DNA of 64,000 bases from Antennarius striatus (taxonomy: Eukaryota > Chordata > Actinopteri > Lophiiformes > Antennariidae). Made by a program: the position numbers and the translations under genes. This document shows positions 2,038-57,775 of the stretch, one piece after another. How positions within the stretch are numbered: position 1 is the first letter of the stretch; each line of letters begins with the position of its first letter. The notes beneath the pieces are model-generated. The model saw nothing but the letters and a program-made list of their open reading frames with translations, was not told where the DNA came from and made no database searches. The stretch covers positions 13,672,501 to 13,736,500 of the forward strand of contig NC_090797.1 in assembly GCF_040054535.1 (NCBI RefSeq), in the 5' to 3' direction.

Positions 2038-4111
2038 GTATTTGGACAAAGTTACCGAAGAGCTTCTAGAGTTTATATCACAGATTGATTTAACTCCTCT
2101 GGACAACACACTGAACAACCTGGATGATACACCCTTGCCTCCACCTCCTACGCTCAGCGCTGCTACTGAAAAGGCTAAGAGTGAAGATGGAGAAGGTTCC
2201 AGGTGCAGTATATCAGAAGCAGCCAGCAAGATGTTGGAGCAGGGAACAGTGGATGTCACTGAAACACTGAACCTGTTGGATCGTTGGTTTGATGAGAACT
2301 TCCCAACAGCAAATTTCAGCGCTCCACCTCCCGTCACTCCACCTCAGAACATGTGTCAGGGTCCTACAGTGGATGACCCAACCGCAGTGACCATCAGTAG
2401 CCCTGCTGCCACAGAACCAGAGAACATGCTGGGCCAGTGGCTTGGAGAGGTCTTCTCAGCTGAAGCGGCCGGTAACTACAGTCCTGCTGCTCCTCCACAG
2501 CACCTGGAGGGTTACTGGTCTGTCTCCAACACCCCAACAGCACCAATGATTGGAAACATTTGTGCTGCTGCTCCACAAGCAGTGAGTCTGTCTGTCTCTG
2601 TGTCCATCCATCCATTTTCTTATTGTGAATGTTCTTTTTCCTAAGTTGAATTGGAATCCTATCCACTTGTGGACCTGTCACATCTTTCTGCTGCGCTTCC
2701 ACAGCACCTGGAGGACAATTGGTCTGTCCCCAACACCCCAACAGCACCAATGCATGGAAACTTTTCTGCTGCTCTACAAACAGTAAGTCCATCCAATCCT
2801 CCATTCATTTTCCCACAGTGAATTTTGTTTTTCTTACTCTAAATTGTAAGGAGAGGTAGTCCTGTCCTCTTGTGGACCTGTGACATCTTTCCAGCTCGTT
2901 TAATCACCTGTTCTGTTTGTACATCAGACTCCAGACATCCCAGTGGGGAGGATCCCTGAGAGCTCGCAGTACTCCATGGAATTTGTTGGAATGCTGTATG
3001 TGACACTCACCTAAATAATTGTGATAATTAAAAGTCTCACACTTTGTTTCTATGATCTAATGTGTTTATTTTCTCTGTGAAGGAATGGGCTACCAGTGTA
3101 CAGATACCCACAGGTTTTAACTAACTCTGTTGTTGCTGCTCCTCCAAAGAACTACTCCATATACCAGTCAAAAAAGTAAGTTTGTTCTGGACACTTTCAT
3201 GCTGAAGAAACTTTTCTCTAGTGTTAATGCAGACTCATGTTCGTTCCTTTGATTTCTATTCATGCATGCATCTCTGCATGAAACATGATTCTAATCACTT
3301 ATGAATATTAATGTCCAGTACAGCACAGACAAGGTTGACTTTGACGCATACTGTGTCGTTCAGTTTCTCCCTACGCTTCTGTGTAGCTCTGAGCTACACA
3401 GAAGCGTAACCCAAGCTCTGCCATGTGTTTAAGGTGTCATACTAGGAATCAGCATCGCAACCATCCCTATGTCAAGAAGCCACCAAATGCATTCATGTTG
3501 TTCTTGAAAGAGCAAAGGCCATATGTCCACCCTGACATCCAGCGCCAAGGGAGTGGTGTTGTGAATAAAATTCTGGGACAGAAGGTAACAAACTTTTAGT
3601 TCTGGACATTTGAGACACTCAAACTTGCTAAGCCATCTCATTTCTTCAGCATTTTATTGCATTATCTACAACATAAATGCTCCTACTGTAATCTACAGAC
3701 TTCAAACACATTTGCATATACTTTAAAATGTGTGAACAAATACCAACAGCATGTAGAGTGAGTGTAGATGGAAGGTTCTGTCTGTGTCCATCTGCATTTG
3801 AAGCATGAATGATACTTTATTGCATCCTTAGTGTTTGTTCATGTGTTCCTGCTCATGTCAGCATTAGACAGCTTGACAGTGTGTGGTTGTGGTATGACTA
3901 ACAGTGTTAGGGACAGAGAACACATTCCAGTGGACATCTATCTATATGTGTCTGTCCACAGTGGACATCTATCTATATCTATATGTCTCTGTCCACAGTG
4001 GACTTCTCTGCCAAAAGAGGAGCAGGACAAATATTACAGAGAAGCCTGGACAGCAAGAGAGGAACACATGAAACAGCATCCTGACTGGTCAGCAATGCAC
4101 AATTATGTAAG

Positions 4112-4203
<92 letters not shown>

Positions 4204-4313
4204 CTTTTTCTGTGCTGACATTTCATGTGTTTCTGTCTGTACAGGGTAGGAAGATGCCCAGAAATCGATGCTGTCGTCCGTCTTTCACCGTTCAGAACCA
4301 TCCATCAGTCTGA
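2038..4313 (+). CDS. TCF/LEF-type HMG-box protein, copy A
   Basis: Inferred exons are 2038-2581, 2705-2782 (optional), 2928-2995, 3083-3175, 3434-3584, 3999-4106 and 4245-4313. All have AG/GT borders and matching phases, giving about 370 residues without the first exon. The HMG box spans the last intron but one. It reads YVKKPPNAFMLFLKEQR, then NKILGQK, then WTSLPKEEQDKYYREAW and HPDWSAMHNYGRK. KKPxNAFM, LGxxWxxLxxEEQxKYY and PxWSAxxNYGxK are TCF/LEF-specific rather than SOX features, and the intron after the LGQK codons sits at the family's usual site. The family binds DNA in the nucleus at Wnt-response elements. The acidic Pro-rich first exon (TPLDNTLNNL, then LLDRWFDENFP) matches no TCF domain I know. 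The basic tail is reduced to RKMPRNRCCR and there is no C-clamp. Expression and start codon are unknown; 5' exons may lie upstream. Confidence 0.72.
2492..2905. repeat. ~205 bp internal tandem duplication making an extra exon in copy A
   Basis: The 3' end of the first HMG-gene exon plus part of its intron occurs twice, at about 2492-2690 and 2690-2905. Both units carry CCACAGCACCTGGAGG, CCCAACAGCACCAATG, a splice donor and CTTGTGGACCTGT. Copy B has the unit once. In the second unit the former coding bases before CACCTGG now form a pyrimidine-rich acceptor. This defines a 78 bp, phase-0 exon (2705-2782, 26 codons, HLEDNWSVPNTPTAPM...) that could be spliced in without breaking the frame. Confidence 0.65.
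3373..3407. repeat. Perfect 35 nt palindrome before the HMG-box exon
   Basis: The 17 bases at 3373-3389 (ACGCTTCTGTGTAGCTC) are exactly reverse-complemented at 3391-3407 with a single T between. It lies 27 bp before the exon at 3434. Copy B has only the left part of one arm and no palindrome, so it arose or was kept in copy A alone. Confidence 0.7.
4119..4204. repeat. (CA)n microsatellite in last intron of copy A
   Basis: About 40 CA units begin a few bases after the splice donor at 4107. Copy B has a CA tract at the same place (19107-19190). Confidence 0.9.
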
Positions 4314-4362
4314 ATTGGTGACTCTGTAGCCCGGACTTTTAAATTGAGGGACTCTGGTATAA

Positions 4363-4556
4363 TGATTTGGAAGAAACAGACAAGCTGGATTGCTGTATAC
4401 TTCTTTTACTTGTGCAGGGAGCGCGAGTGGAAGGCAGGTATAATTAATGAAACAATAACCAATCGCAGTGCAGATCACTAAACAATGTATCAAAATAACA
4501 ACTAATCAGTTCACTGCTCTAAAGAAATGTTCTAGCAACATTATATCCCTCCTTTA
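4363..4556 (-). mobile_element. Candidate Gypsy 3' LTR and polypurine tract
   Basis: Read on the minus strand, the purine run AAATTAAAGGAGGGA (about 4562-4548) is followed by a segment starting TGTTGC and ending ...CA at 4363. That is the TG...CA form of an LTR after its polypurine tract. With no second LTR to compare, the borders are estimates. Confidence 0.4.
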
Positions 4557-5116
4557 ATTTAAAATGAAAATAAACTTACAGTTTTAGGGGTTTTTTGTCC
4601 AAAGTCTACGCAGATTCTGAACTGCTGCACATGAACAGAATCAAACCCAAATAGAGTATCTTCACATAAAGGCACAGTCCATTCTTTTCTCATGTGGGCC
4701 TTTTTTGGTTTTTATTGAGTACCAGGGTTGGACTGGCATGTCAGTTAACATTAGTGTTTTCCTCTTGGTGATCAGGCTCCTCATCTGATGAATCTGAAAG
4801 GTGTAAATGCAGATTATCCCCTCCATCAGATATAGTGTGATCTGAGCCAATTGCAACTGAAGATGGAATTTGTTTGAAGTGAGAGGAGTTTCTTGTCACT
4901 TCATGTCCAGATCGGGCAGCTATTATCATTGACCCTTTGACCTTCACGACGGTGTAAGGCTTAGCATGATAAAGCGTTGGTAGCTTGCTTCTGACCAGCT
5001 AACAGCAGAGTACAGTGTCTACTGGTTTGAGAACAGTGTACCGTGCTCTATTCCGGCAGTCAGCGTGTTCTTTCATGCATTTCTTGGCACAATGATTTGT
5101 GTCATGCAGTTGAGTG

Positions 5117-5864
5117 TTAGACATGAAATAATGAAGATGGGTAGGTTGATATGTAGTTTCCTTCTGTACAGTAACTCAGAGTCTGTTGAGTGGTTCCGTG
5201 AGGGGTCGCACAGTAGTTTCTGACAAAAGTGTCAAGACTTTGTTTCCAAGGGTTGACCTCCGAATGATTGGCAGTAATGGTCTTCTTCAAACTTTTCATA
5301 AAGCGCTCTGCCTCGGCATTTGCCTATAAGGTGTTATTCTCCTGTATTTGAAACCGAGGTATTGGCTGAAGTCTTTGAAGGGTTGTCCATTGAACGGAGG
5401 TCCGTTATCTGTTTTGACAAGAATTGGAATCCCAAGGGATGAGAAGATCTTGTCGAGTTTGGGAATCAGAGTACAGTAGTGCCTGCTGTGGACTTGACTA
5501 TTTCTACTTCCGGGAAGGACCAGTGAAATCAACGCATACTTCTTGCCATTGACTTTTAGAGAGTTCAGACATCTTGAGTGGCTCCATGCAATTCTAAGTG
5601 ATGGCTGCTTAGCATGGAATACGGTGTTGTATTGCTTTTTCCACCATGTCATCTATGCCTGGAAACTTTTTCCTTCAGGAGCTGTTTGGTTTTGACAATG
5701 CCTAAATGACCAGCTTGGGCTAGGCTGACAGCTTTGTGGTGGAGAGATGAAGGCAACACAATTCTTGTACCTCTGAGAAGGATGTTCTCATCGGTGTTGA
5801 CTGTTAGTTTGTGACGCACACGGTACAGGGGTTTCATTTGAAGATGAGAGTCTGTTTTGTCCAT
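5117..5864 (-). pseudogene. Gypsy integrase remnant
   Basis: The first part (5864-5649) has the spacing of an integrase zinc-binding region, with LHHKAVSLAQAGHLGIVKTK and LLKEK. The second part (5652-5296) carries the core with ILVKTDNGPPFNG, then FSQYLGFKYRRITPYR, the D and later region of a DDE integrase as in fish Gypsy polyproteins. The third (5299-5117) continues as the C-terminal side. The parts are in different frames and interrupted, so no functional enzyme is encoded. Confidence 0.7.
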
Positions 5865-5983
5865 TGGTGCATATTGCTAGTTTTCTGTGCTTAAGAAGTG
5901 CATTGCCTCTCAAAGGACTGCATCTTTCTTTGTGTCTTTTTGCACTTCTTCGAGTATCATTGCTTTTAGAATAGCATTGTCAA

Positions 5984-6425
5984 TTATGAAGTTGACGTAT
6001 TCCTCAGCCATTTAAGAGGATCTGTGCGGAGTGTCCCACTCAGTAGGGTGTCTCGACATGTAGTCAACAGGGTTATCCGCTCCAGCTTTGTACTTGACTG
6101 TGAAACTGTAGGGTTGTAGTCTGAGTCGCCAGTGTTCAAGTCGAGCTGAGGGTTTGGCTTTTGGGCTGTTAAATATGAGTTCCAGCTCCTTTTGGTCTGT
6201 GATAACTTAGAGGTGATACCCATACAGATATAGGTGGAAGTGTTCACAGGCAATCTCTGGAGCTTCTCTATCTGTGAGTATGGCTGCTCCACAGCTCTCT
6301 CAGTGAGTAGTGCTGTTCCACAGCTTTGATTTCAGCTTTTTCATTGCTTTTCTAGCAATGGCAGGCATTTTTCCGGGTGAATTCTCTCAGGGGTTGGGAG
6401 ATCGAGGCATAGTCTGCATTTTCAC
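5984..6425 (-). pseudogene. Gypsy RNase H / end of reverse transcriptase, frameshifted
   Basis: Across frames the minus strand reads NADYASISQPLREFTRKN (thumb region before RNase H), VEQ(P/H)YSQ..EK and CEHFHLYLYG, then LEHWRLRLQPYSFTVKYK and NPVDYMSRHP. This is the typical RNase H order of Gypsy pol. Several frameshifts are needed to follow it. Confidence 0.65.
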
Positions 6426-6427
6426 AG

Positions 6428-7172
6428 CCTACAGCCCACCTACATTCCGCTGGTGAAACGGCTGCCAGCAACAACACGGCAGGTCAGGAGGTGATCCCTG
6501 GAAGCTGAGGAAACGCTTAGGGACTGCTTCCAGACCACCGACTGGGATGTTATTGTGGGCTCACATGGGGAGGACATTGAGGGGGCAGCTCAGTGTTTTA
6601 CAGATTACATGAACTTCATTGTGGACACCGTAGCTCCTGTCAGGAGAGTCAGGTGTTACCTCAACAAGAAACCATGGGTAACCACCGAAGTCAAGGCTGT
6701 CCTGAACAGGAAGAAGCGGGCGTTCAGGTGCAGGAATGAGGAGGAGATGAGGAAGGCCCAGCAGGAAGTGAGACCCTGCCTGAGGGAGGCCAAGGAGGCG
6801 TACGGGAGGAAGCTGGAGAAGCAGCTGGGGTGCAACCAGGTGCAGGAGGTCTGGAATGGGATGAGAACCATCACCGGACACGGGAAAGGGCGCGGCACTG
6901 TGGAGGGGAATAGTGAACAAGCGAATGAACTTTCAATCGGTTCAGCTCCCCAACCACTCCCAGCTCCTCGTCCCAGGCCTCTCCCAGCCCTCCAGACCAC
7001 TCCAGTGTATGTCTTGTGGTATGTCCTGTGGTGTCAGTATTTCTTTCTATCCTGGTGTTTATCCAGTATTTATTCATTATGTAATACCAGAGCAATGGAT
7101 ATGTGCAATTTCCTCCGGGAAATGCTAGATACTATATATACTATATATCTATCTATCTATCTATCTAGTCAT
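6428..7172 (+). mobile_element. 5'-truncated, internally deleted LINE nested in Gypsy
   Basis: The frame from 6490 reads CFQTTDWDVIVGSHGEDIEG, then FTDYMNFIVDTVAPVRRVR and LNKKPWVTTEVKAVLNRKK, then VWNGMRTITGH. This is the linker between endonuclease and reverse transcriptase in jockey/L2-type fish LINEs. The reverse transcriptase is deleted, and the sequence jumps to a 3' end with GTGCAATTTCCTCCGGGA and a short (ATCT)n tail at 7147-7168, typical of these LINEs. Confidence 0.65.
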
Positions 7173-7264
7173 GAACTGTATGTTGTCATACCCAGCAGAC
7201 TGCGAACCTCGGACATGTTTAGGGGTGGAGGAAGGTTCTTGATGGCTTCTGCTGATCCTTAGGC

Positions 7265-7729
7265 TCTTCTAAGGATCTTTGGGTCCAACTCCAGTGTTTC
7301 AGATCAAGCTTGGAGAACATCATAGCTCCATTCAGGTCATGGATGGGGTCGTCACCTGTGGCATAATATGTCTTTCACGCTGTATTGCTGTATTTAGGAG
7401 GCGCATTTTGACACATATGTGAACTTTGTCAGGATTTTTCGTTCTTGGAGCGACCACTATCGAGGATACCCATGGTGTTGGTCCGCTAACTCGCTCAATG
7501 ATGCCTTGTTCTCCCAGCTTGTATAGCTCTTGTTCCACTTTTCTCCATATATGGAACGGGATCCTTCAGTGTGGCTGTACTGTAAATACGGCTGCACTGA
7601 CTGATCAACATGCAGCTTCACTTGAAAGTCTTTGAGCTTCCCTATGCCCTGAAATATGCTCTGGATACTCACAGATGATCTGGCTGGCTGATTGAACATT
7701 GGTTTTCTGTTTTCTGTTACATTTGGCAT
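7265..7729 (-). pseudogene. Gypsy reverse transcriptase N-terminal remnant
   Basis: The minus strand reads FQGIGKLKDFQVKLHVDQSV, then EQELYKLGEQGIIERVSGPT with PWVSSIVVAPRTKN, then MRLLNTAIQRERHIMP and, after a shift, DLNGAMMFSKLDL. These are the opening motifs of Gypsy reverse transcriptase. The catalytic YxDD segment is absent because the nested LINE and deletions replace it. Confidence 0.68.
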
Positions 7730-7785
7730 GAAAGATGACCCAGGAGCCTGACTCTCCCATCATCACTATTATGTTTACAGTGAAT
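7727..7785. other. Resumed 3' flank of HMG-box gene copy A
   Basis: GATGACCCAGGAGCCTGACT and CTCCCATCATCACTATTATG match 19349-19395 (GACGACCCAGTAGCTTCACT and CTCCCACCATCAGTATTATG) downstream of copy B. Copy A's flank therefore continues on the far side of the Gypsy insertion. Confidence 0.65.
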
Positions 7786-7838
7786 CTTCTTCTCTTCCTT
7801 TCAGCTTTTCCCTTCTGGGGTTGTGAATCAGTTGCCTC
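7785..7838 (-). mobile_element. 3' tail of RTE-like LINE
   Basis: Reverse-complemented, this reads GAGGCAACTGATTC...CCCAGAAGGGAAAAGC..GAAAG, the same 3' terminal sequence seen after the LINE open frames at 15863 and 18700. It sits directly after the resumed HMG-gene flank. Confidence 0.6.
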
Positions 7839-8136
7839 GATAAACATGAAATTTACAGACACAAATAAATTCAATTAACTTACCTTGCTGCCACTCTCGA
7901 CTGGACCTAAACTCCTTTACTCTCCCGTTTGTTTCTAATGTATTTATCACTCGTTTCTCCCCCCGTACACCTTGCCGTTTCTGCACTAATTACCTCATTT
8001 TTACCTTGTGATGCTACGCGCACTCTGCGACCTTCCAAAATAAACGTCCTTTTCCACAGGAAATGGCAACATCAGAAAATAACAGGGCCTTTCAAAACAA
8101 AACTCTTAAATGCTTTAAACAGTAAATTGGGTTTAT
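7839..8136. other. No gene seen
   Basis: Ordinary AT-moderate sequence. No coding motif, RNA gene or repeat structure was recognised. Confidence 0.4.
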
Positions 8137-8391
8137 TTACAGAATCCTTTCGTCCCCAAACCAGACTCCCTCCAGGTCCTGGCTGCACCTAAAAGTTCTT
8201 TCCATAAAGATTATGAGTAGAACCGGTGATACAGGGCAGCCCTGCCAAAGTCCAACATGCACCTGGAATAGGTCTGATTTACTGCCAGCAATGCAAATCA
8301 AGCTCCGGCTTCGAACATACAGGGACCAGACAGACCTCAGCCAAGGGCTCCCATACTCCCGAAGCATCGCCACAAGATGCAACGATACCAA
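8137..8391 (-). pseudogene. LINE reverse transcriptase fragment
   Basis: The 84-codon minus frame reads MLREYGSPWLRSVWSLYVRS, then RSLICIAGSKSDLFQVHVGL and WQGCPVSPVLLIIFMERTFR. This is the GLRQGCPLSPxLF motif (RT motif 4) of a common fish non-LTR element, with the Arg of RQG changed to Trp. It stops before the catalytic FADD motif. A further fragment of the same kind of element is at 11405-11525. Confidence 0.7.
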
Positions 8392-8406
8392 TCGAATGCC
8401 TTTTCC

Positions 8407-8456
8407 ATATCATTCATTCATTTATCTTCAGAACCACTTCATCCGCTGTCGCGGGT
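8407..8456 (-). repeat. Fragment of ubiquitous fish dispersed repeat
   Basis: CATTCATTCATTTATCTTCA and CCGCTGTCGCGGGTCATG match the ends of the repeat family also seen at 33121, 35430, 36385, 55675 and 59158. Confidence 0.45.
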
Positions 8457-8476
8457 CATGAGGAGATGGCCAACCA

Positions 8477-8805
8477 TTGAATGAACTTTAAAAGTATGTA
8501 CATCAGGGTAGGAAGAAAGGAGGATGAAGCCATGCACCCATCATGAGAGGCCCAGGACACTACAGGCAGCCGGGGTAGGGCCTTCTACTCCCTTGCGTCA
8601 GGAGATTTCAATTGAATCTTTTTGTGATGTTGTGACTGTAGACAATGATGTCCCCAAGGTCTTTGCTGCGTTACCATGATAAACAATATGGTTGAACTAT
8701 TTGCCACTACAATCTTTCACTGACAGGGAAGCTTTACCCGTCTTGATTTCACAAACATTTTGTGTCTCTGGGATAACCAGTTTGATAACCAGTCTTGTGA
8801 TTAAA
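8477..8805. repeat. ~330 bp direct repeat, unit 1
   Basis: Matches 9134-9460 over nearly its whole length. Shared segments include CATGCACCCATCATGAGAGG, CAGATTTCAATTGA..CTTTTTGTGATGTT, ATGGTTGAACTATTTGC, CTTGATTTCACAAAC and GATAACCAGTCTTGTGAT. It has no open frame. Family unknown to me. Confidence 0.75.
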
Positions 8806-8987
8806 ATGGCTACATTTTGGCTCAATTTTGTTAAACTAAAAAACAAATAAACACATTTTAGTCTAAAGAAATGTGATTGATGTGACCCGTAGTAGTACTT
8901 CAAACTTTGCCAGAAAACTTGAGCTGTCTAAAGTTGTGGACACAGCCCCAAAACTAACTCTCCTTTCGCTCCTTTGGCGAAACTATA

Positions 8988-9024
8988 TGTAAGAGATGCC
9001 AATAGATGATTGGCATCTCTTACA
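8988..9024. repeat. Perfect 16 bp stem hairpin
   Basis: TGTAAGAGATGCCAAT (8988-9003) and its exact reverse complement (9009-9024) enclose the loop AGATG. It lies between the two ~330 bp repeat units. The stem is shorter than a typical microRNA precursor. Confidence 0.75.
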
Positions 9025-9089
9025 TCAGAAACCAATGCCATATCGTTGATGCATCTTGGTTCGACCAAGGTGAAATTACAGTACAAGTC

Positions 9090-9132
9090 ATCAGGATGGC
9101 CGGGCTGTCTAAGGCGCTGCGTTCAGGTTGCA
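9090..9132 (+). pseudogene. 5' half of tRNA-Leu(CAG)
   Basis: ATCAGGATGGCCGGGCTGTC and TAAGGCGCTGCGTTCAGGTT are nearly identical to the 5' half of vertebrate tRNA-Leu with anticodon CAG: acceptor strand, D arm with box A, and anticodon arm. The variable arm, T arm with box B and 3' acceptor strand are missing. At 9133 the sequence passes straight into unit 2 of the ~330 bp repeat. It is either a truncated tRNA gene or the head of a tRNA-derived SINE. Confidence 0.6.
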
Positions 9133-9133
9133 C

Positions 9134-9460
9134 AATTGAGTGAACCTTACAAGTATGTACAACAGGCTAGGAAGAGAGGAGAATGAACCCATGCACCCAT
9201 CATGAGAGGCCAAGGAGACCACGGGTAGCCGGAGTAGGTTCTCCACCTGATAACTTGCGTCGCCAGATTTCAATTGATTCCTTTTGTGATGTTATGATTG
9301 TAGACGATGATGTCCTCAAGGTATTTGCCGCGTTATCATGATACACAAAATGGTTGAACTATTTGCAGTATTTCACTGAGACGACCTCTAGCTGCCTTGA
9401 TTTCACAAACTTTCTTTGTCCTTAGAATTTTCTTTAGATAACCAGTCTTGTGATGAAAAC
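9134..9460. repeat. ~330 bp direct repeat, unit 2, fused to tRNA-Leu half
   Basis: Partner of 8477-8805. Only this unit is preceded by the tRNA-Leu 5' half. In unit 1 that place holds GAGATGGCCAA, possibly a decayed remainder of it. Confidence 0.72.
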
Positions 9461-9547
9461 ATTTTTAATTAATCTTTGACATGCCTCGCCAAATGTTTTT
9501 TCATTTGCATGTCATTCACAAGTTTCTCAATATTCTTTATTCCTGGC

Positions 9548-10685
9548 AGCTCAAAACTCAGCATCCTTCTACCAATATATTCACTATCTCTCCTCTGGAC
9601 ATGTCCAAACCATCTCAGTCTGGCCTCTTTGACTTTATCTCCAAAACCTCTAACATGTGCTGTCCCTCTGATGTACTCATTCCTGATCCTATCCATCCTG
9701 GTCACTCCCAGAGAGAACCTCAGCATCTTCATCTCTGCTACCTCCAGCTCTGTCTCCTGTCTTTTCCTCACTGACACTGTCTCTAGACCAAACAACATCG
9801 CTGGTCTCACCACAGTTTTGTACACCTTTCCTTTCATTTTAGCTGAAACTCTTCTATCACACATCACACCTGACACTTTCCTCCACCCGTTCCATCCTGC
9901 CTGGACACGCTTCTTCACCTCTTTTCCACACTCTCCATTGCTCTGGACTGTTGAGCCTAAGTACTTCAAATCCTCCACCTTCTTGATCTCTTCTCCCTGT
10001 AACCTCACTCTTCCACTTGGGTCCCTCTCATTCACACACATGTACTCTGTCTTACTGTGGCTAACCTTCATTCCTCTCCTTTCCAGGACAAACCTCCACC
10101 TCTCTAGCTTCTCCTCCACCTGTTCCCTGCTCTCACTCCAGATCACAATGTCATCTGCAAACACCATAGTCCATGGAGATTCCTGTCTAACCTCGTCTGT
10201 CAGCCGGTCCATCACCATAGCAACAAGAAGGGGCTCAGAGCTGATCCCTGATGCAGTCCCACCTCCACCTTGAACTCCTTGGTCATACCTACAGCACACC
10301 TTATCATTGTCTTACAGTCCTCATACATGTCCTGCACCGCTCTAACATACTTCTCTGCCACTCCAGACTTCCTCATACAATACCACAGTTCCTCTCTGGG
10401 CACCCTGTCATAAGCTTTCTCCAGTTCTATAAAAACACAATGCAGCTCCTTCTGGTCTTCTCTGTACTTCTCTATCAACATCTTCAAAGCAAATGCTGCA
10501 TCTGTAGTACTCTTTTTTGGCAAGAAACCATACTGCTGCTCACAAATGCTCACTTCTGCCCTTTGTCTAGCTTCAACTACTCTTTCCCAAAGCTTCATTG
10601 TATGGCTCATCAGCTTTATTCCTTTGTAGTTGCCACAGCTCTGCACATCTTCTTGAAAATGGGCACCAGCAATTTCGAGCCCTGC
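9548..10685 (-). pseudogene. RTE-like LINE reverse transcriptase, frameshifted
   Basis: The minus strand carries an RTE-type reverse transcriptase and C-terminal region: DVQSCGNYKGIKLMSHTMKL, FIELEKAYDRVPREELW, GLHQGSALSPF, the catalytic VFADDIVIWS (about 10150-10165), KTEYMCVNE, DLKYLGSTV, WFGHVQRRDSEYIGRRMLSF. A single-base deletion near 10222 shifts the frame between the LHQGSALSPF motif and the next block. The endonuclease half is absent and homology ends after FELPG near 9548, before the usual tail seen at 15700-15897. It is a dead 5'- and 3'-truncated copy. Confidence 0.8.
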
Positions 10686-10739
10686 TATGTAACAAACAGG
10701 CCTATTTAACAAACTGTAACAGTTATTAAATGGTAACAA

Positions 10740-11354
10740 ATATGCTACTCCACCACAAAGAATCAAAATAATATAGGCCTAAGTTCAACATCATGTTTTC
10801 TCTTTCGAGTACGAGTCTCATTGTGTTCTTTACCCCCTTCTCCTGATGAAGTGTCCGGGTGAGTTTTCTGTGTTCTGTGCTCCTCATTTCAAGTTTCCCC
10901 TGTCTCGTCATCATCACTCTCTTTTTCCTGCTCGATTTCTTCAGCCTGGTAGACTGCACAGCTCTCCGTTGTGGCCAATGTATCCTGTCCTCTTTCATTC
11001 CTCCCAGATTTAATACCGGACAGACTGCCCGTTTTCAACCAGTTATGCATTTCGGCATATTATTGTTGTTGCTATCACAACAAGCTAGCACGTAGCTAGG
11101 AGAAAGCCAAGTGCATTTTGGGTATTTTTTTTTTATTTAAAATTTTCCCAAAACGTTTTTTAATTGAAAATTACAAATGATTTCCGTGAATGAATTTAAA
11201 TATTTAAACTGTTAATCCTCCATTAAAAAGTGTTTAAATTATTTATTTAATTATTTATGTATGTCAAGGTGCTCAGCTGCCATTGTACTCACGCACCCCC
11301 TAGCGGCAGCTCGCGCACCACAGGGGGTGCGCGCACCACACTTTGGGAATCCTG
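10740..11354 (-). mobile_element. hAT-type DNA transposon end with transposase N-terminus
   Basis: Read on the minus strand it begins CAGGATTCCCAAAGTGTGG followed by a GC-rich stretch, as in hAT elements common in fish, with GATTAGGG outside as a possible 8 bp target copy. Further in (about 11049-10888) a short frame reads MHNWLKTGSLSG, then acidic EEIEQEKESDDDETGE and a stop, resembling the start of hAT transposases. The catalytic part is missing, so it is a truncated copy. Confidence 0.45.
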
Positions 11355-11404
11355 GATTAGGGCATTTGCATGGAAAACGCATCTCTAATTTCAAAATTTT
11401 CTCA

Positions 11405-11525
11405 AGAAATTTCTTCAGCGTGTCCTAGGTCTTCCTCGAGGTCTCCTCCCATTTGGACATGCCCGGGACACCTCCCCAGGGAGACCTAGGAGGCATCCAG
11501 AACAGATGCCTGAGTCACCTCAGCT
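11405..11525 (-). mobile_element. 3' fragment of a fish LINE
   Basis: GGTCTCCTCCCATTTGGACA, TGCCCGGGACACCTCCCCAG and GAGGCATCCAGAACAGATGC are the antisense of the well-known C-terminal coding region of a very common fish LINE, of the same kind as 8137-8391. It has no intact frame. Confidence 0.55.
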
Positions 11526-11769
11526 GATTTTCAAGAGAACCTCAGCATCTTCTTTGCACCTAAATTGCACCTAAATAAAATAAATTAATAGACTCATTTA
11601 CCTCTGTCATTTTATCATGACTGCAACAGACTACATTTAAACTTAAGCATTGACTTATATGCATGACTTGAAATCTGTACTTTGACTGCCATAAAGCACA
11701 GCAAAGCGTTTCTTGTCCGTCATCATAGTGAATTGTCAAATCGGGGCTCCATTTTTAGTGGTGTCGCAG

Positions 11770-12705
11770 CTGTTAAACTGCGGGTCACCTTGCCCTAGGT
11801 TAACAAAACTAACCCTGGACAGCCTTTGTGAAATCGGAATCCCTGGTTTTCCAACTTCAGGGTAAGTCAACCCAGAACCACAGGGATTACCGTATTTATT
11901 CGAGTATAACGCGCAAAATTTTCTACCTAAAAAAGAACTCAAAGTTTGAGTGCGCGTTATAAACGAGGACTGGGGTGACACGCTTAGATGTGTTAGCATA
12001 CAGTATTATTTGCGCAATGACTTATTGGTCGCAGATATCGCTGACCACAATCGCAAAACATTGAATGCAGCCACATCTCTCGACCCACAAAACGTCCATG
12101 GTCGATTTTTAGTAACAGTATCCAAATCATTTGCGTGGGCGATCTAAAATAAATACCGGTAATTCATGATGGCTCATGCGCATCACTCCTGCAGAGGCGA
12201 GGCGCATCTAAGGAAATGGTATTCAATAATCAAATGCCTCATCAGCAGACCTTGTCGGATGGTGTCATTTCCGAGAATTCTTATTATCCGCTGTGACGTA
12301 TGATATTTGATTATTGATTAGCATTTTATTAGCTACGCCTTGTCTCTTCATTTCCTTTCCTCGCCTCGGCCACACTGAAACGTGAGTTACCGGTAAGCAT
12401 TGCTGGTGTATCTGATGATGAATCGGACTTTGAAGGATTTTAAATACCGGTAAATATTGTTAATTTTATTTCGGTATTGTGTTCATAGTTTACGTTGTCA
12501 ATAAATGATTTTTATCATGGACGCACGTGTTTAACAATGCTTGGCACTTACAATGCTTTGTCTGAGCCGAAAAAAAGTGAAACAAAATTTTATACCGATT
12601 TTTAATCGAAAATTAGAGATGCGCGTTATACACGTGTGCACATTATACTCGAATAAATACGGTATCTCAGGGTTTGTTAACCCTGCCTTTTTGAAACAGG
12701 CCTAA
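11770..12705. mobile_element. Harbinger-type non-autonomous element, split by a TIR element
   Basis: Outside 11890-12662 the sequence joins into a ~160 bp repeat rich in AGGGTTAACAAACCCTG-like words and ending GCCTTTTTGAAACAGGCC at 12702. The same style of end is found at 13697 and 14845, around a HARBI1-like exon. The borders are estimated. Confidence 0.45.
11890..12662. mobile_element. Complete 773 bp TIR element with TA target duplication
   Basis: The 20 bases CCGTATTTATTCGAGTATAA at 11890-11909 are exactly reverse-complemented at 12643-12662, and TA flanks both sides (11888-11889, 12663-12664). A second GCGCGTTATA motif lies inside each end. TA targets and this kind of terminus suggest a Tc1/mariner or pogo-related non-autonomous element. 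The 65-codon open frame inside (11950-12147) resembles nothing I know. It is inserted in a Harbinger-type repeat. Confidence 0.8.
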
Positions 12706-12794
12706 CGTCGATATTTGTTGGCAGGAAGAGGAAGAAAATATCTCGTCATACCTGTGGTGTCCGACGGACCAGTGACGGCATGACTGACTGAAGA

Positions 12795-12920
12795 CCTGGC
12801 AGTGGAGGGACTCAGGCTACGTCCACACGCATTTGGATCTTTTTGAAAACGCAACTTTTTTTCCTCGCATAGAAAATTTTTTTCATCCACAGGACAGCGT
12901 TTTTGAAAAAATCCGTCCAC
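12795..12920. repeat. Terminus of a dispersed fish DNA-transposon-like repeat
   Basis: GGCTACGTCCACACGCATTT, then TTTTGAAAACGCAACTTTTT and CCACAGGACAGCGTTTTTGA follow a pattern repeated widely in fish genomes. The rest of the element is not evident. Confidence 0.35.
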
Positions 12921-13696
12921 TAGTAACTGCGTAAGTGCTGTGATCAACACGTTTGTAAGCAGAAGAACTCTGTAACAACTCCGGGAATGACAGGAGAGAG
13001 GACTGGGATGTGGGGAAATTCACACCATTCCTCCATGAGGACGACCTCCAGCAGACCTGACGCAGACCTGGTGTCGGGGTCTTAGGCGAGGAATGAATGG
13101 ATGAATAAATACATAAACTTTATGACTCAAAGAAAGAAAGAGACAAACAAATATTCACTGTCAAGGATGTTTATCAACGCTTCTTCGACGTGGAGCTGTT
13201 ACACTTCAGAAAATAGACGGTTTTAACTCCGTCCATTCTGTTTGTATGTGGAGAGACGGGTTACACACACTAACGTCACAGCGGTTTTTGTCGCAGGGAG
13301 AGTCACCCACGGGGCCTCAGACTCATCCTCCATCTTTCAGGACTCCCACCAGTCGTCCTCTTGAAGGTCATCGGTAGAAGAGCCCAAACAAAGATTTTTG
13401 TTTAGCTACATGTCATGTATGTAATTTCCATTATGTCCGAGTCACTTCTACACACCTAGTGTAACATCAGCATCACAATCTTGTTCCGGTCAACTAAATC
13501 TGATTAACAAGAACACCATACTGTAATGATACTGGTAACTCATAGACATGTTAACAGTGATTCTGTATGCATATATTTCTTTTATGTGTGTGTTCATTTT
13601 AAGTGTCTACTTTAAGTATTAAATTGAATTTAGATGTACCTATCAGAATGAATGAAGTATGCAGCCCTGACGCAACTCCAACTTTATCCTTGTTGA
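12921..13696. other. No gene seen
   Basis: No coding motif, RNA gene or repeat structure was recognised between the ends of neighbouring transposons. Confidence 0.35.
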
Positions 13697-13969
13697 ACAT
13701 TGGGCCCATTTTACAAAGCCCGTTTAGTGGAAAACCTGGGTGAGTTTACCCTGAAATCAGAGAAAACCAGGGTTTTCAGTTTCACAAAGGGAGGTAACTT
13801 AACCCAGAGTTACAGCAGTAACCCTGACCAGTTTCATGAAGCGAGGTAAACTGAACCTCTGGGTTTGTTACCGCAGTAACAGACTGAAGCTGAATTTGAA
13901 ATGATATTCTCTTTATGACATTGTGCTGCAACCTCAGAATTGGATTATTAACTTTAATATTTATTTTAG

Positions 13970-14019
13970 GATTTCCCAATGTCATTGGCTGCATAGAAGG
14001 TACTCACATTCCCATCAAG
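13970..14019 (+). pseudogene. HARBI1-like transposase exon
   Basis: After an acceptor (TTTATTTTAG) the frame reads (G)FPNVIGCIEGTHIPIK and ends at a GTACAT donor. FPxVIGCIDxTHxxI is the signature around the first catalytic acidic residue of Harbinger nucleases. Here the usual Asp of the GCIDxTH motif is Glu. Only this exon is clear. Confidence 0.6.
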
Positions 14020-14640
14020 GTACATGTCGATTGAATACTACAGTATTTCAACATTTTAAAGACTGCATCATAGATAAACTAACATCTGTCTAGATCATGT
14101 GTGAGGCTGCAGACTACATTTTCTGATGTGGAGGTCTGGGTCTGTTCCCGACTCTCAGATGTATGGTCTTATCTGAGCAACAGACTGTAATGTGGTCAGT
14201 AACCTAAAGATTTTCACAATAATTCACTTGTCTTCATTGTGTAATCCAGTCCAATGAATCTACTATACATTACAGGAGAGAGCCTACGTCACCTCAGGAT
14301 GATTCCTGCTACCCAGGACGGCAGAGCAGTGACAGACACCATCTGCCAGAATCAGAGACTAAGTCACCATCACCACCATCACAGCGGGCAATAAAAACAT
14401 ACAATACACATATGCTTTGGTCGTCTTTACTTCTTACCAATACAAAGTTAGTTTTCGTATCCTTTCGATAGTTAGCGTTTTAATAGTCAACATGATTCAC
14501 ATGTGACCATCACCCTAACTTGTGCTGTGCTCCAGTATTTCCATGTCCAGATCTGCCCTCCTCATCTGGAGATTATGATAAACCATTTATGTTTTCTGTA
14601 TTTTTTTAATAAGTAAATTCTATGAATTTCTTTAGCAGAT

Positions 14641-14735
14641 AGATGGGGATACACGAGGAGACAGGGTTAGATGGAGGCAACTGATTCGCTGTGGCGACCC
14701 CTGAAGGGAAAAGCCGAAAGAAAAAGAATAGACTA
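14641..14735 (+). mobile_element. 3' end of RTE-like LINE
   Basis: AGATGGAGGCAACTGATTCG and CTGTGGCGACCCCTGAAGGG are followed by AAAAGCCGAAAGAAAAAG, identical in layout to the tails at 15841 and 18680. It covers only the last codons (RWRQLIRCGDP) and the tail. Confidence 0.7.
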
Positions 14736-14845
14736 GACTTTCTTTCTTCTCAAAATGTCCTCAAAGCTCAGTGTAATGTCGACCCAGAACCGCAGGTTTA
14801 CCTCAGGGTTTGGTAAGCCCGCTTTCGTGAAACTGGCCCGTTCAC

Positions 14846-15392
14846 TTCCATTCATAGCGCCACCTGCTGGCTTCATGAAAAATACGTGTCAGATTGACAG
14901 AAGAATCTTCCATCTCCTGTCAGTTGCAATGAGTCACACACAATTGATGGTGATTGGCTGATTCAGTTTCACCTGGTTTATGATTGGTGGACTCCACTTG
15001 ACTCCACCCACTTTGACTGTATTAACATAACACCTGAAGTGATTTCAGTCAGTCAGTCATTCCACATCAGTGAGGCCAAGACATCTGTCTGCGAACGAAC
15101 TGCAGGATATCAGAGCATCAAACTGGGAAAACTGATTAACTGAAACCTGATATTCATTTTGTTTTGAACAACACATTTGAATCACATCAACAAATAAACA
15201 GCAAAATAAAAGACAGTTAAAATTGTCAACTGACATGCAGCCAGTAAAGTAAGTCACAAGTCTTGTACTACTAATGTAAAATTAGTATATCAAATTAATA
15301 TTCCTTCAAATTTACAGTTAAATGTTCATATATTTTATATTTATCGCACAAATTGAAAGATTTTCATGATTTTTGTCTTAATTTTGAGTATT
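14846..15392. other. No gene seen
   Basis: AT-rich flank with a TCAGTCAGTCAGTCA run near 15045. No coding or RNA gene signal was recognised. Confidence 0.35.
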
Positions 15393-15409
15393 ATGGTTCA
15401 CAGTTCATG

Positions 15410-15897
15410 TGATAGAAGAGTTTCAGCTAAAATGAAAGGAAAGGTGTACAAAACTGTGGTGAGACCAGCGATGTTGTTTGGTCTAGAGACAGTGTCACTG
15501 AAGAAAAGACAGGAGAAAGAGCTGGAGGTAGCAGAGATGAAGATGCTGAGGTTCTCTCTGGTAGTGACCAGGATGGATAGGATCAGGAATGAGTACATCA
15601 GAGGGACAGCACATGTTAGAGGTTCTGGAGATAAAGTCAGAGAGGCCAGACTGAGATGGTTTGGACATGTCCAGAGGAGAGACAGTGAATATATTGGTAG
15701 AAGGATGCTGAGTTTTGAACTGCCAGGCAGGAGGCCTAGAGGAAGACCAAAGAGGAGGTTTATGGATGTAATGAGGGAAGACATGAAGGTAGTTGGTGTG
15801 AGAGAAGTGGATTCAAAGGACAGGGCTAGATGGAGGACACTGATTCGCTGTGGCGACCCCTGAAGGGAAAAGCCGAAAGGAAAAGAAGAAGAAGAAG
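15410..15897 (+). mobile_element. 5'-truncated RTE-like LINE with 17 bp target duplication
   Basis: It encodes the last ~150 residues of an RTE-like ORF (CDRRVSAKMKGKVYKTVVRP to WRTLIRCGDP, stop at 15861-15863), then the standard tail and a GAA run. ATGGTTCACAGTTCATG (15393-15409) and ATGGTTTACATTTCATG (15898-15914) flank it and match at 15 of 17 bases, which marks the target-site copy. The corresponding site in copy A (about 1038) is empty. Confidence 0.85.
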
Positions 15898-16149
15898 ATG
15901 GTTTACATTTCATGAACATCAAAATCTGGCATTTCAAAAAATTTTAATACAATAATCCTTCGCGTATTTGTGCTTCAAGATGCCGGGCTTCATTACATTG
16001 CAGATTTTTAGTAGTTGGTCACGTGATGCCGTATGCGCAATGCTACTGGCTGACATCATGACTCACGGAACGCAGTGCACTCCTTTGTATGCTTGTAGGC
16101 ATTCAGAGGAGAGGATGATGGTGGGCAGCTCCTACCTGGTTTGCCCCCA

Positions 16150-16330
16150 ATGAATTGGGGGATGATGCATTGCCCAAAGGCAACTCAGCAGTGCTAAGGG
16201 GTGAACTGGCACCTCCAGTTCTATCAGTGAACTACCAGTTCACATAGCAAATTTTTGGTCCACAATCAGGTCTTGAACAGGCCCCCCTCCGGTCCTCAGC
16301 CTAAGACCTACTGGAATGAGCTATTACATA
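16150..16330. repeat. Dispersed fish repeat, copy in duplication B
   Basis: Diverged partner of 1330-1520, sharing GGCAACTCAGCAGTGCT, GAACTGGCACCTC and AAATTTTTGGTCCACA. Confidence 0.5.
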
Positions 16331-16786
16331 TATTGTCTACGATAATATATGTTCAAATACATAGTGCTTCATTAGTCGTTAGTAGCACATTCACAAAGTT
16401 GGTTTGAACGAAACATTGTGAGAGACCCATATTAGTTCAGCCTGTCCTAATTTAGTTTAAACACATTCTGTTAATGATTGTAATTAATAAATAAAATCAT
16501 AAATGTGCCCCTCCTCCCCAAATTCACCTTTTCTGCATGAGATCAATGCTACAACAACATCTGAGTGTTCCTTCATATTTAACAGCATCCAATGCAGAAG
16601 GATTACAACCTTCTGTTCACCTAAGCTGTTCATTCAGAACAAAAGACCTTTCTCACTCCTTCTTATCCAGTGACATCTTTTATTAGTAAAGTCCCAACAT
16701 GATTTAACTACAGGTGTCACATAAATGTAGTGAAATGTAAAAAATATCCCTGAATGAATCAACTTTGGTATCTTTGTGTTTTGCAG

Positions 16787-19102
16787 ATATTTGGACAAAG
16801 TGACTGAAAAGCTTCTGGAGTTTATCTCACAGGTCGACTGCAGAGAGTTAACTCCTCTGGACAACACACTGAACAACCTGGATGGTACACCCTTGCCTCC
16901 ACCTCCTATGCTCAACGCTGCTCCTGGAACAGCTAAGAGTGAGGATGGAGAAGGTTCCAGGTGCAGAATATCAGAAGCAGCCAGCAAGATGTTGGAGCAG
17001 GGAACACTGGATGTCACTGAAATACTGAACCTGTTGGATCGGTGGTTTGATGAGAACTTCCCAACAGCAGATTTCAGTGCTCCACCTCCTGCCACTCCAC
17101 CTCAGAACATGTGTCAGGGTTCTAGAGTGGATGACTCAACAGCAGTGACCATCAGTATCCCTGCTGTCAAGGAACCAGAGAACATACTCCTGGTAGCTGG
17201 TAGATACACTCCTGTTGCTCCTCCACAGCACCTAGAGGGTTACTGGTCCGTCTCAAACACCCCCACAGCACCAAAGTTTGGAGACTTTTGTGCTGCTCCT
17301 CCAGAAAAAGTAAGTCTGTCCATCGGTCCGTCTGTTTGTTCATTCATTCCTCCATCCATTTTCTTGTAGTGAATTTTGCTTTTCCTAAGTGTAAATTGTC
17401 ATCCTGTCCTCTTGTGGACCTGTGACATTTTTGCAGCTCATCTAATCACCTGTTCTGTTTGTACATCAGACTCCAGACATCCCAGTGGGGAGGATCCCTG
17501 AGAGCTCGCAGTACTCCATGGAATTTGTTGGAATGCTGTACGTGACACTCACGTGAATGATTGTGGTAATTGAAAGTCTTGCACTTAGTTTCTATGATCT
17601 AATGTGTGTCTTTTCCCTGTGAAGGAACGGACTACCAGTGTACAGATACCCACAGGTCTTGACTAACCCTGTTGTTGCTGCTCCTCCAATGAACCACTCC
17701 ATATACCAGTCGAAAAAGTAAGTTTGTTCTGGACCTTATCATCCTGAAGAAACTTTTCTCCAGGTTCAATTCGGACTCATGTTCGTTCCTTCATTTCATG
17801 TGTGTTCTGTTCATGCAAACATCTCTGCATGAATCATGATTATAATCAGTAATGGATATTAATGTCCAGTAAAGCATTGGCAAGGTTAACTCTTACACAT
17901 GCTTTGTGTCGTTGGGCTTCTCTCCACGCTTCTGTGTTAACCCAAGCTCTACCATGTGTTTAAGGTGTCATACAAGGAATCAGCATCGCAACCATCCCTA
18001 TGTCAAGAAGCCACCAAATGCCTTCATGTTGTTCTTGAAGGAGCAAAGGCCATATGTCCACCCTGACATCCAGCGCCAAGGGAGTGGTGTTGTCAATAAA
18101 GTTCTGGGACAGAAGGTAACAGACCTATAGTACTGGAAATGTAAGACACTCAAACCTGCGATGCCATCTCATTTCTTCAGCATTTGTTGCATGAGCTACA
18201 TCACAAATGCTGCTACTGTTATCTAGAGACTCCAAACACATTTGCATATACTTTAAAATGTATTAACAAATACCAACAACATTCAGAGTGAATGCAGGTG
18301 TATAAAACTGTGGTGAGACCAGCGATGTTGTTTGGTCTAGAGACAGTGTCACTGAAGAAAAGACAGGAGACAGAGCTGGAGGTAGCAGAGATGAAGATGC
18401 TGAGGTTGTCTCTGGGAGTGACCAGGAAGGATAGGATCAGGAATGAGTACATCAGAGGGACAGCACATGTTAGAGGTTCTGGAGATAAAGTCAGAGAGGC
18501 CAGACTGAGATGGTTTGGACATGTCCAGAGGAGAGATAGTGAATATATTGGTAGAAGGATGCTGAGTTTTGAACCGCCAGGCAGGAGGCCTAGAGGAAGA
18601 CCAAAGAGGAGGTTTATGGATGTAGTGAAAGAGGACATGAAGGTAGTTGGTGTGAGAGAAGAGGATGAGAAGACAGGGTTAGATGGAGGAAACTGATTCG
18701 CTGTGGCGACCCCTGAAGGGAAAAGCCGAAAGGAAAAGAAGGAAAGAAGACGCAGAGTGAATGTAGGCTGAAGACTGTCTGTGTCCATCTGTATTTTTAA
18801 GCATGAATGATCCTTTATTGTGAGGGTAGCATCATTAGTGTTTGTTCATGTGTTCCTGCTCATGTCAGCTTGACAGTGTGTTGTGTGATAACTAACAGTT
18901 TTAGGGACAGAGACCACATTCCGGTGGACATCTATCTATATGTGTCTGTCCACAGTGGACGTCTATCTATATCTTTATGTCTCTGTCCACAGTGGACGTC
19001 TCTGCCAAAGGAGGAGCAGGACAAATATTACAGAGAAGCCTGGACAGCAAGAGAGGAACACATTAAACAGCATCCTGACTGGTCAGCAACGCACAACTAT
19101 GT

Positions 19103-19193
<91 letters not shown>

Positions 19194-19304
19194 GTCTGTA
19201 ATGATCTGATGAAATTCCATGTGTGTGTTTCTGTGCAGGGCAGGAAGATTCCCAGAAATCGATGCTGTCGTCCTTCAGAACCATCCATCAGTCTGAACTG
19301 GTGA
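16787..19304 (+). CDS. TCF/LEF-type HMG-box protein, copy B
   Basis: Inferred exons are 16787-17309, 17470-17537, 17625-17717, 17965-18115, 18993-19100 and 19239-19304, about 336 residues without a first exon. Phases agree at every junction. The HMG box differs from copy A at only four positions (NKVLGQK, EEHIKQH, WSATHNY, GRKIPRN). The first exon has 9 extra bases (VDCRE) and a 30-base deletion relative to copy A, all in frame. The last exon ends differently (PSEPSISLNW) after a 12-base difference and a frame change. A LINE (18299-18752) lies in the intron between the two HMG-box exons without touching splice sites. By family the protein would be a nuclear DNA-binding factor, but the basic tail is shortened as in copy A. 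The start codon was not found with confidence. Confidence 0.72.
18284..18767 (+). mobile_element. RTE-like LINE 3' end in HMG-gene intron, with 15 bp target copy
   Basis: The insert at 18299-18752 encodes YKTVVRPAMLFGLETVSLKK to MKVVGVREEDEKTGLDGGN, shifted near its end, and then the GGCGACCCCTGAAGGG tail. The flanks CAGAGTGAATGCAGG (18284-18298) and CAGAGTGAATGTAGG (18753-18767) match at 14 of 15 bases. Copy A's intron has the empty site. The coding piece lies in intron sequence and is not part of the HMG-box gene. Confidence 0.87.
19107..19190. repeat. (CA)n microsatellite in last intron of copy B
   Basis: About 41 CA units directly after the donor at 19101, in the same place as the tract in copy A. 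Confidence 0.9.
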
Positions 19305-20655: not shown

Positions 20656-21420
20656 TAGCCTGTTACAGATTAATATTTAGAACCAATGCAATCACAAACT
20701 GCAACATCCCGCGACACCCCTGAATTCAGAATTTTACCCTGACCTACTTGCATAGGTCAAAGATCAAAGCTAGTGCTCTGACCTACTATCATTAATCAAA
20801 GCACTAGCTTTGATCTATGGTCTTACTTGTTTGTCTTTCTATCTTATCAGGCTCCTGGGTGTAAAAAAGTTGAAAGTTGACCTTGACCTAGTTTTCTCAA
20901 GGTCAAGGTCTTCATCTCATTTTCATCTCCTTTGACGGCCAAGTAATTAACTTTTTGTTTCATCTTTCTATCTGCAATGGTTGCGAAGATATTTGGTGGA
21001 CACACTAACGGACGGACAGACAGAAGAACACTAGAACACCGACAATTACAAAACTGTTGCTTCACGTCCTCCACCTGACAGAGCAGTCGTCTTTACTCCT
21101 GCTAGGAACGGGCTTTGTCTAGCTGTTAAGAGCAAAGGAAGGTTACTAAGCAGTTACTGTTTTCACGGTGCACTACAGTAGTAACATGTAAAAGGTACAG
21201 CGTTGACAAAAATCAACAGTGTGGCAGACTTCACTGAACTCCAGTAGGAGCTGCTCAAGGCTTCGGGGAAAAATCCATGCAGTTACCTGAGCTTATAACG
21301 GTAGAAATGTCTTGAAATAGGAGGTGAACTTTATTGCACGCAGTTGACAGGTTAATAGTAGTTTATTGGTGCTTTGTCCAAACAGTAAAAGGATTTCAAT
21401 GTTAGTGAGAGGGTGACAAG
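20656..21420. repeat. Dispersed repeat region with two inverted repeats
   Basis: AGATCAAAGCTAGTGCT (20761-20777) is exactly reverse-complemented at 20800-20816. GACCTTGACCT (20879-20889) is mirrored at 20900-20910. The nearby text GGTGGACACACTAACGGACG followed by GACAGACAG recalls a dispersed repeat of animals. No gene was recognised. Confidence 0.45.
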
Positions 21421-21474
21421 TGGAGATGAGGTCATATTTATACTTATTTACATATTTTCTTCTTCTTCTTCTTC

Positions 21475-42619: not shown

Positions 42620-43031
42620 TCATCCGTAACTATGGGGACTTCTGGGATTGATGGGGGACGAATCTTCTCGGCCACTTTGACCGATGAGCTGATAGAGTCG
42701 ATGACTGAGGTTCTGCACTTGGCATGTTCCCAGTACGCAGCCCACTCTCATCAGCTGGGCATGCTGGGGGTAGTGGTGGCCACGCGACCCCACGTGAGCA
42801 TGGCGACGAGCTCTCAGTGCCCTCCTCGTCATCTCCGACGCAGCGGTGGGGCGTGCCCAAGTCAGACTCGGTAAGTGTCTTCTCACTCTTGAAGCCGGTC
42901 GGGGTCTCAGGAAACCAGGAAGCCACTTTGGAGACTGGCTGGACGCTAAGAACCGGACAATGTCAGTCTTGATTGCCGATGAAGACGTTTCATCTTCCTT
43001 CTGGTTGGGACGCCTGTTGAAAAAGTCCAAC
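42620..43031 (-). CDS. adm2: adm2 exon 3: propeptide and mature hormone
   Basis: The acceptor TTTTTCTCTCTTCAG ends at 43032. The exon supplies the third base of a split Arg codon, then LDFFNRRPNQKEDE and on to the stop TGA at 42622-42620. It contains both basic cleavage sites and the whole mature peptide. Confidence 0.93.
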
Positions 43032-57557: not shown

Positions 57558-57775
57558 AACCCATCGCTCCATCAGTCTCCAGGTTGCTAGTGACGGTTCT
57601 ACTTTCCAGCATTCATGTTCTCTGCCTGAAAATCTACCGACTCTGCCTGTTGCCTGCTCCTCATCTGATTTGTTTGCCTTTCTTGGATTGATGACGTACT
57701 GTTTTGAATTAAATGTGGATTTCAGTTCTACACTCCTGTTGTGCTTTTGGCTTCCGTCTGAAGCGTGACACAAGC
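57558..57775 (+). mobile_element. Possible LTR remnant beside the minisatellite
   Basis: GCCTTTCTTGGATTGATGAC, TACTGTTTTGAATTAAATG and CTTTTGGCTTCCGTCTGAAG followed by CGTGACAC have the layout of the R-U5 end of fish Gypsy LTRs (polyadenylation-like AATTAAA, then TGACA). The 5' part of such an LTR may be what the minisatellite grew from. No matching second LTR was found. Confidence 0.25.

Follow-up and report, generated by a model that had tools for sequence, protein, structure and literature searches.

A tandem pair of TCF/LEF-type HMG-box genes without a detected beta-catenin-binding domain in the frogfish Antennarius striatus

A 64-kb stretch of genomic DNA from the frogfish Antennarius striatus (contig NC_090797.1; the whole stretch is hereafter called the window) carries two genes, copy 1 (2038-4313) and copy 2 (15235-19304), collinear and in tandem on the same (+) strand, whose predicted proteins combine an HMG box of the TCF/LEF type with an acidic, proline-rich N-terminal half. 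Our preferred reading, to which we give a probability of about two in three (0.67), is that they go back to tandem duplication of an HMG-box gene of TCF/LEF origin, belonging to a set of fast-changing percomorph genes, and that their products bind DNA without beta-catenin input. The existence of this same-strand pair had been proposed in an earlier note on the window and was borne out here, as were the exon boundaries given in it, with GT at the internal donors and AG at the acceptors of both copies. Spliced copy 1, an extra exon included, matches letter for letter the 305-residue database protein P0001, 'lymphoid enhancer-binding factor 1-like [Antennarius striatus]', of a species whose chromosome-level genome is described in the part of the source available (PMC11192929); 13 tissues are named there for RNA reads, neither gonad nor embryo being included. 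Copy 2, with its proposed first coding exon, is intact and has 340 residues from ATG to stop.

The mechanism that we envisage is as follows. The protein would enter the nucleus, where its HMG box would bind and bend TCF-type sites (presumably CTTTGA-like) through the kept DNA-facing residues and without beta-catenin, and the acidic, mostly disordered N-terminal half would supply another input. As a guess, we lean somewhat more towards an independent regulator, probably confined to certain tissues, than towards a pure competitor of the normal factors.

HMG box, exon layout and beta-catenin input

The Pfam HMG box was found in both copies (E 2.5e-15 in copy 1 and 7.7e-14 in copy 2), with 39/83 and 37/83 positions, respectively, identical to LEF1. 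Its assignment to the TCF/LEF type in the earlier note has been supported, LEF1 being the best PDB sequence match of copy 2 (2lef, E 1.7e-18, 70 bits; CIC comes second, 6jrp, 53.6 bits), with a tree grouping that is moderate only. N7, F9, M10, S29, N33 and Y75, which we take to be DNA contacts of LEF1, are unchanged with respect to it in the alignment.

The HMG box of the frogfish genes is cut at LGQK/W and HNY/G and the basic tail lies in the next exon (exons 5/6/7); the exact cut points of canonical TCF/LEF genes are assumed to be the same. This layout agrees with that of chordate TCF/LEF genes, in which, according to the available part of a chordate survey, the HMG box extends over two exons and the basic tail (the nuclear localization signal) follows in the next, the intron preceding the tail being a chordate innovation (PMC9303524). 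Moreover, we infer shared cut points in three relatives from truncated protein models that enter apparent donors at the same places, P0022 after LGER and P0035 after VGEK (VS following in each), and P0032 after DNY (then V).

Two HMG-box trees were computed, both with few columns and long branches (frogfish branch length 0.63 and 0.67). The first contains 44 rows and 84 columns (27 fish, 13 canonical TCF/LEF, CIC, SOX5, SRY and HMGB1), ten of the 35 fish-type proteins being absent from it (P0001, which is copy 1, P0019, P0021, P0022, P0027, P0028, P0032, P0033, P0035 and P0037); the second, with six of the left-out proteins added, contains 50 rows, 33 of them fish. Canonical and fish rows together stand apart from the four outgroups at 94/78 in the first tree and at 76/79 in the second. 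Canonical and fish rows are split at 100/100 in the first when the outgroups are not counted, and the canonical rows form one group at 100/100 in the second. SOX5 and SRY make up a starred branch of their own in both, and CIC, though on long branches, joins them rather than the frogfish copies; by these trees the frogfish box is neither of SOX type nor of CIC type. Since the tree support is moderate, the columns few and the branches long, the HMG box favours a TCF/LEF grouping without proving it, and descent of the frogfish genes from TCF/LEF, as judged from these comparisons, is moderately supported. A single clade of the fish proteins was also considered: it is apparent in the 27-row tree with the outgroups uncounted, and neither supported nor rejected with 33 rows and the outgroups counted.

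The beta-catenin-binding domain (CTNNB1_binding, PF08347) was found in neither copy with E values admitted up to 1, nor in P0001 with values up to 10, whereas it was recovered in 3/3 canonical controls (gecko LEF1, 1.2e-83; acorn worm TCF, 6.7e-46; starfish TCF, 2.9e-24), which upholds the previous statement that no such motif was found. The domain occurs in 0/35 relatives according to the precomputed domain lists, the dedicated domain test having been made on the frogfish copies only. The C-clamp (PF27556), also claimed to be missing, is not among the precomputed domains of P0001; its absence is not distinctive, because normal LEF1 and TCF7L1 resemble the frogfish genes in having none, as stated in the available part of the survey (PMC9303524). 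Finally, the basic tail had been described as nearly gone; a reduction is confirmed, a near-loss is not, as GRKMPRNR keeps 4/8 basic residues versus 7/8 in the GKKKKRKR of LEF1. Tail charge is equally low in the fish relatives P0006, P0010 and P0014.

N-terminal half and relatives in other fishes

A search of fish proteins, suggested in the earlier note, revealed fast-changing relatives in other percomorph fishes. A search with copy 2 gave 22 proteins at E <= 0.001, and one with an 18-sequence alignment gave 35 proteins at E <= 1e-6 from 7990 candidates scored; the combined set comprises 37 proteins (34 fish proteins, P0008 and two canonical TCFs, sponge P0034 and salmon louse P0036). The 7 fish species whose taxonomy was looked up, from 7 orders, all belong to Percomorphaceae (7/7), and the remaining fish genera of the set are presumably percomorph as well. 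A restriction of the family to percomorphs is suggested, not proven, because only the top candidates were scored. A third, more distant protein, P0021, comes from the frogfish itself. The percomorph relatives (among P0002-P0037) have, like the frogfish copies, a PYVKKPPNAFMLFLKEQR-type HMG box; unlike them, many retain a GKKRKR-like tail. Their database labels include LEF1-like, TCF7-like, 'transcription factor 7-like 1', 'SOX-14', Sox-10 and 'pop-1-like'. In P0023 of Thalassophryne amazonica, labelled nucleolar transcription factor 1-like, five HMG-box stretches stand in a row.

In its available part, the chordate survey lists five TCF/LEF genes each in medaka, green spotted pufferfish and Japanese pufferfish, each of them assigned to one of the four known subfamilies (PMC9303524), so genes of the present kind are either absent there or uncounted. 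No publication describing these genes was found in the literature searched; the available part of a study on croaker, where tcf7l1a is a candidate gene, contains no hint of a gene of the frogfish type (PMC11855550).

The N-terminal half had been considered novel. This holds with respect to Pfam and PDB, in which it has no match, and does not hold in the sense of a frogfish-only sequence, as other percomorph proteins share its features: an acidic start and proline runs, both seen by eye, and, ahead of the HMG box, a motif of the VGxLNGxxVY type. The motif was recognized by pattern in 15/35 family proteins, the pattern excluding the frogfish spelling VGMLNGLPVY. The middle parts of the frogfish copies align poorly with the relatives. 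In the goodeid proteins P0024 and P0035, a unit of an N-terminal acidic helix and a proline run appears, by eye, to be repeated several times.

P0001 was modelled with AlphaFold2 from an alignment that held 23 further rows, three canonical TCF/LEF among them. The resulting model has a mean predicted local distance difference test score (pLDDT) of 64, with ten-residue blocks of 88-98 over the HMG helices and values below 60 in much of the remainder. Outside the HMG box, a beta hairpin is predicted at residues 161-173, over MEFVGMLNGLPVYRY, which corresponds to the VGxLNGxxVY motif (pLDDT 90 in block 161-170 and 74 in the next), as well as a helix at 9-23 (75 in block 11-20 and 61 in block 21-30).

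The hairpin motif occupies the place expected for exon VII of the TCF helper and co-repressor region (exons VII and VIII), and an origin from this exon (QGQPVYPI) was tried as a candidate. The profile alignments fall on the motif, but with E 0.48 and 0.4, and 11/150 column shuffles score as high as the real alignment. Among the members long enough for the test (29/30), 5/29 are in register, and a single one of the five, P0004, reaches p<0.05 (0.008); P0031 also has p<0.05 but is out of register. When pairs were tested, 3/25 gave p<0.05, P0004 with LEF1 and with acorn worm (both in the motif) and P0013 with sea urchin. The predicted structure of the sea urchin TCF, P0114, shows no hairpin at the exon VII place. 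By its place such a descent is plausible, without statistical support.

A broader scenario, which we regard as doubtful, would trace a percomorph-wide family to a TCF/LEF gene. After losing its Wnt input and acquiring a new N-terminal half made of repeatable acidic helix and poly-proline units, this gene would have undergone tandem duplication and rapid change in the style of germ-line or early-embryo genes, for a beta-catenin-independent job.

Coding status and rival explanations

The ratio of non-synonymous to synonymous substitution rates (dN/dS) between the copies, a check proposed earlier, was calculated over 322 codons, from which the first exon, the extra exon 2b and the terminal stretch of exon 7 were excluded. 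It is overall well below 1, rather than near it: 0.352 (bootstrap 0.223-0.571) for the whole alignment, 0.122 (0.023-0.39) for exons 5 to 7, which are the HMG exons, and 0.502 (0.291-0.858) for exon 2. In a neutral simulation at d 0.155 the two copies accumulated a mean of 5.6 stops, and 0.35% of 2000 runs were stop-free, as the frogfish frames are. These values sustain the view that both copies code, and the low ratio indicates that selection has retained both frames during most of the time since duplication. Three exon indels separate the copies: those of 9 and 30 bases, in exon 2, keep the frame as claimed earlier, and a third of 11 bases in the last exon is out of frame and alters the last 8 to 9 residues. 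Jukes-Cantor (JC) distances are 0.12 for exon 2, 0 for exon 3, 0.091 for exon 4, 0.034 for exon 5 and 0.048 for exon 6, and 0.152, 0.171, 0.162 and 0.094 for introns 3, 4, 5a and 5b, respectively. P0008, encoded on a contig of 1975 bases, continues through the HMG joins, which, together with the database model of copy 1, may hint at spliced transcripts.

Several observations weigh against the preferred reading. As regards descent, neither tree gives starred support for an origin from TCF/LEF; in the second, the fish rows were never one side of a branch in 200 bootstrap trees (a single clade has p-AU 0.267 in the approximately unbiased test and is not rejected), and the fold search with the P0001 model returned 7m5w (CIC) first, followed by 2lef (LEF1) and 6jrp (CIC), all of them HMG boxes. 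As regards function, the acidic-hydrophobic peak of the N-terminal half, sought as a sign of an activation domain, is not above shuffles (p 0.39 and 0.11). As regards constraint, dN/dS is 0.625 (0.329-1.331) for exon 2 from MLEQ on, the value of 0.189 for exons 3-4 has a wide interval (0-0.961), and exon 2 is more diverged than intron 5b. Because exon 2 is hardly slower than the introns by nucleotide distance, it is mainly the HMG exons that show clear constraint, and outside the box constraint is weakly shown; a pairwise dN/dS, furthermore, cannot tell which copy is constrained, nor the present-day state of both. As regards completeness, no database protein for copy 2 is among the matches to its query at E <= 0.001, and a counterpart of the first coding exon was not found for copy 1 in bases 1-2037, the similarity upstream of the two copies being significant only from about base 1038 on. 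Since P0001 begins at an internal methionine, the ATG at 2231 inside exon 2, and this first exon was not found, copy 1 may be 5'-truncated.

Among the rival explanations, the proteins could act as competitors that occupy TCF sites, do not recruit beta-catenin and damp Wnt targets in the manner of deltaN LEF1/TCF7. The frogfish proteins share with these a TCF HMG box without the beta-catenin-binding domain, and natural deltaN isoforms of TCF7 and LEF1 are reported in the available part of the survey (PMC9303524). The deltaN forms are, however, isoforms of full genes, whereas each frogfish copy is a gene in its own right and has a diverged HMG box, whose limited identity to LEF1 (39/83 or 37/83) means that site preference may differ; moreover, many fishes have relatives that bear N-terminal halves of their own, which suggests a role that goes further than blocking. 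We hold pure competition to be somewhat unlikely.

It is more improbable that the pair is decaying under relaxed selection and becoming pseudogenes, copy 1 being already truncated at its 5' end. The missing first exon of copy 1, the frame-shifting indel at the end, the lack of a database protein for copy 2 and the divergence of exon 2, about as fast as that of one intron, would fit such a decay, but the dN/dS of the HMG exons, with its upper bound of 0.39, the absence of premature stops, the intact splice sites and the other two exon indels, both in frame, argue against it.

A converged SOX- or CIC-type HMG gene is very improbable. In its favour, Capicua (CIC) shares the HMG fold, with 40-41% of positions identical across 70-74 columns of the alignment, ranks second by sequence and leads by fold E-value; SOX-14 or Sox-10 appears as the label of some relatives, and the tree support for the TCF grouping is under the strong mark. 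Against it, LEF1 is ahead by sequence, both trees place CIC beside SOX5 and SRY (96/72, and 98/79, the latter flagged as long branches meeting) and the exon layout is that of TCF/LEF.

Gene anatomy, neighbouring features and significance

The features of both copies are collected in Table 1. The boundaries proposed earlier for copy 1 stand; exon 2b, shown by P0001, had been overlooked. The exon 2b unit duplicates, in tandem, the last part of exon 2 together with flanking sequence (about 74% identical), and copy 2 is without it. The repeat fragment of copy 2 listed in the table, which we take to be LINE-like (long interspersed nuclear element), is also found in the first intron of this copy, 15442-15741 being 98% identical to 18296-18595.

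Table 1. Features of the two HMG-box gene copies (window coordinates)
Feature	Position	Strand	Content and basis
Copy 1 exon 2	2038..2581	+	Acidic Pro-rich N-terminal part; splice sites; translation equals P0001 from MLEQGTV
Copy 1 extra exon 2b (HLEDNWSV...ALQT), 78 bases	2705..2782	+	Used in P0001
Copy 1 exon 3 (TPDIPVGRIPESSQYSMEFVGM)	2928..2995	+	First strand of predicted beta hairpin; 68/68 bases equal to copy 2
Copy 1 exon 4 (NGLPVYRYP...)	3083..3175	+	Second strand of predicted hairpin
Copy 1 exon 5	3434..3584	+	HMG box part 1, end LGQK/W; Pfam match
Copy 1 exon 6	3999..4106	+	HMG box part 2, end HNY/G; Pfam match
Copy 1 exon 7	4245..4313	+	Reduced basic tail, then stop; frame shifted near end by 11 bases that copy 2 lacks
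Copy 2 proposed first coding exon, ATGCAGCCAGTAAA before donor gtaagt (MQPVK), 14 bases	15235..15248	+	Inferred from fitting phase and donor
Copy 2 exon 2	16787..17309	+	Acidic Pro-rich N-terminal part
Copy 2 exon 3	17470..17537	+	Splice sites
Copy 2 exon 4	17625..17717	+	Splice sites
Copy 2 exon 5	17965..18115	+	HMG box part 1; Pfam match
Copy 2 repeat fragment, copy 2 only, intron between exons 5 and 6	18296..18740	+	Outside gene product
Copy 2 exon 6	18993..19100	+	HMG box part 2; Pfam match
Copy 2 exon 7	19239..19304	+	Reduced basic tail and stop

Upstream of the first exon of copy 2, the segment 14950-15030, inspected by eye, contains ATTGG boxes (two), a CACCTG box and the stretch TATTAA, and is a possible promoter of this copy. 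Upstream of copy 1, an inverted repeat, GAGCTAACCGCCATTTATTACT, stands at both ends of the segment at about 284-437, as in a small DNA transposon.

No further copy was detected in the window by tblastn, the extra matches being repeats at 56.6-57.7 kb, and no RNA families or tRNAs were found in it. Repetitive frames occur in several phases at 56458-57664 (+); P0004 and P0014 match them through their repeat-rich tails. Other features include a coding exon of adrenomedullin-2 (intermedin) at 42626-43075 (-), of which 46 residues match PDB 6uva, Protein ADM2 (E 3.5e-20); the remains of a reverse transcriptase (RVT_1), split between two overlapping frames, at 9475-10778 (-); and a 566-residue open reading frame at 21389-23086 (+), probably of a LINE, with a zf-RVT match of 27.1 bits against a curated cut-off of 27.5.

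Compared with vertebrate LEF1, TCF7, TCF7L1 and TCF7L2, the frogfish genes share the type of HMG box and its division over two exons followed by a tail exon, and differ in that no beta-catenin-binding domain was found, in the reduced basic tail and in the different N-terminal half. TCF/LEF genes are usually treated as a small, conserved set. A wide set of fish proteins that have such a box, lack the beta-catenin-binding domain and are labelled LEF1-like, TCF7-like, SOX-14 and pop-1-like would confuse studies of orthology and expression that deal with Wnt targets in fishes, and would constitute a natural test of how an HMG box of this type acts without beta-catenin.

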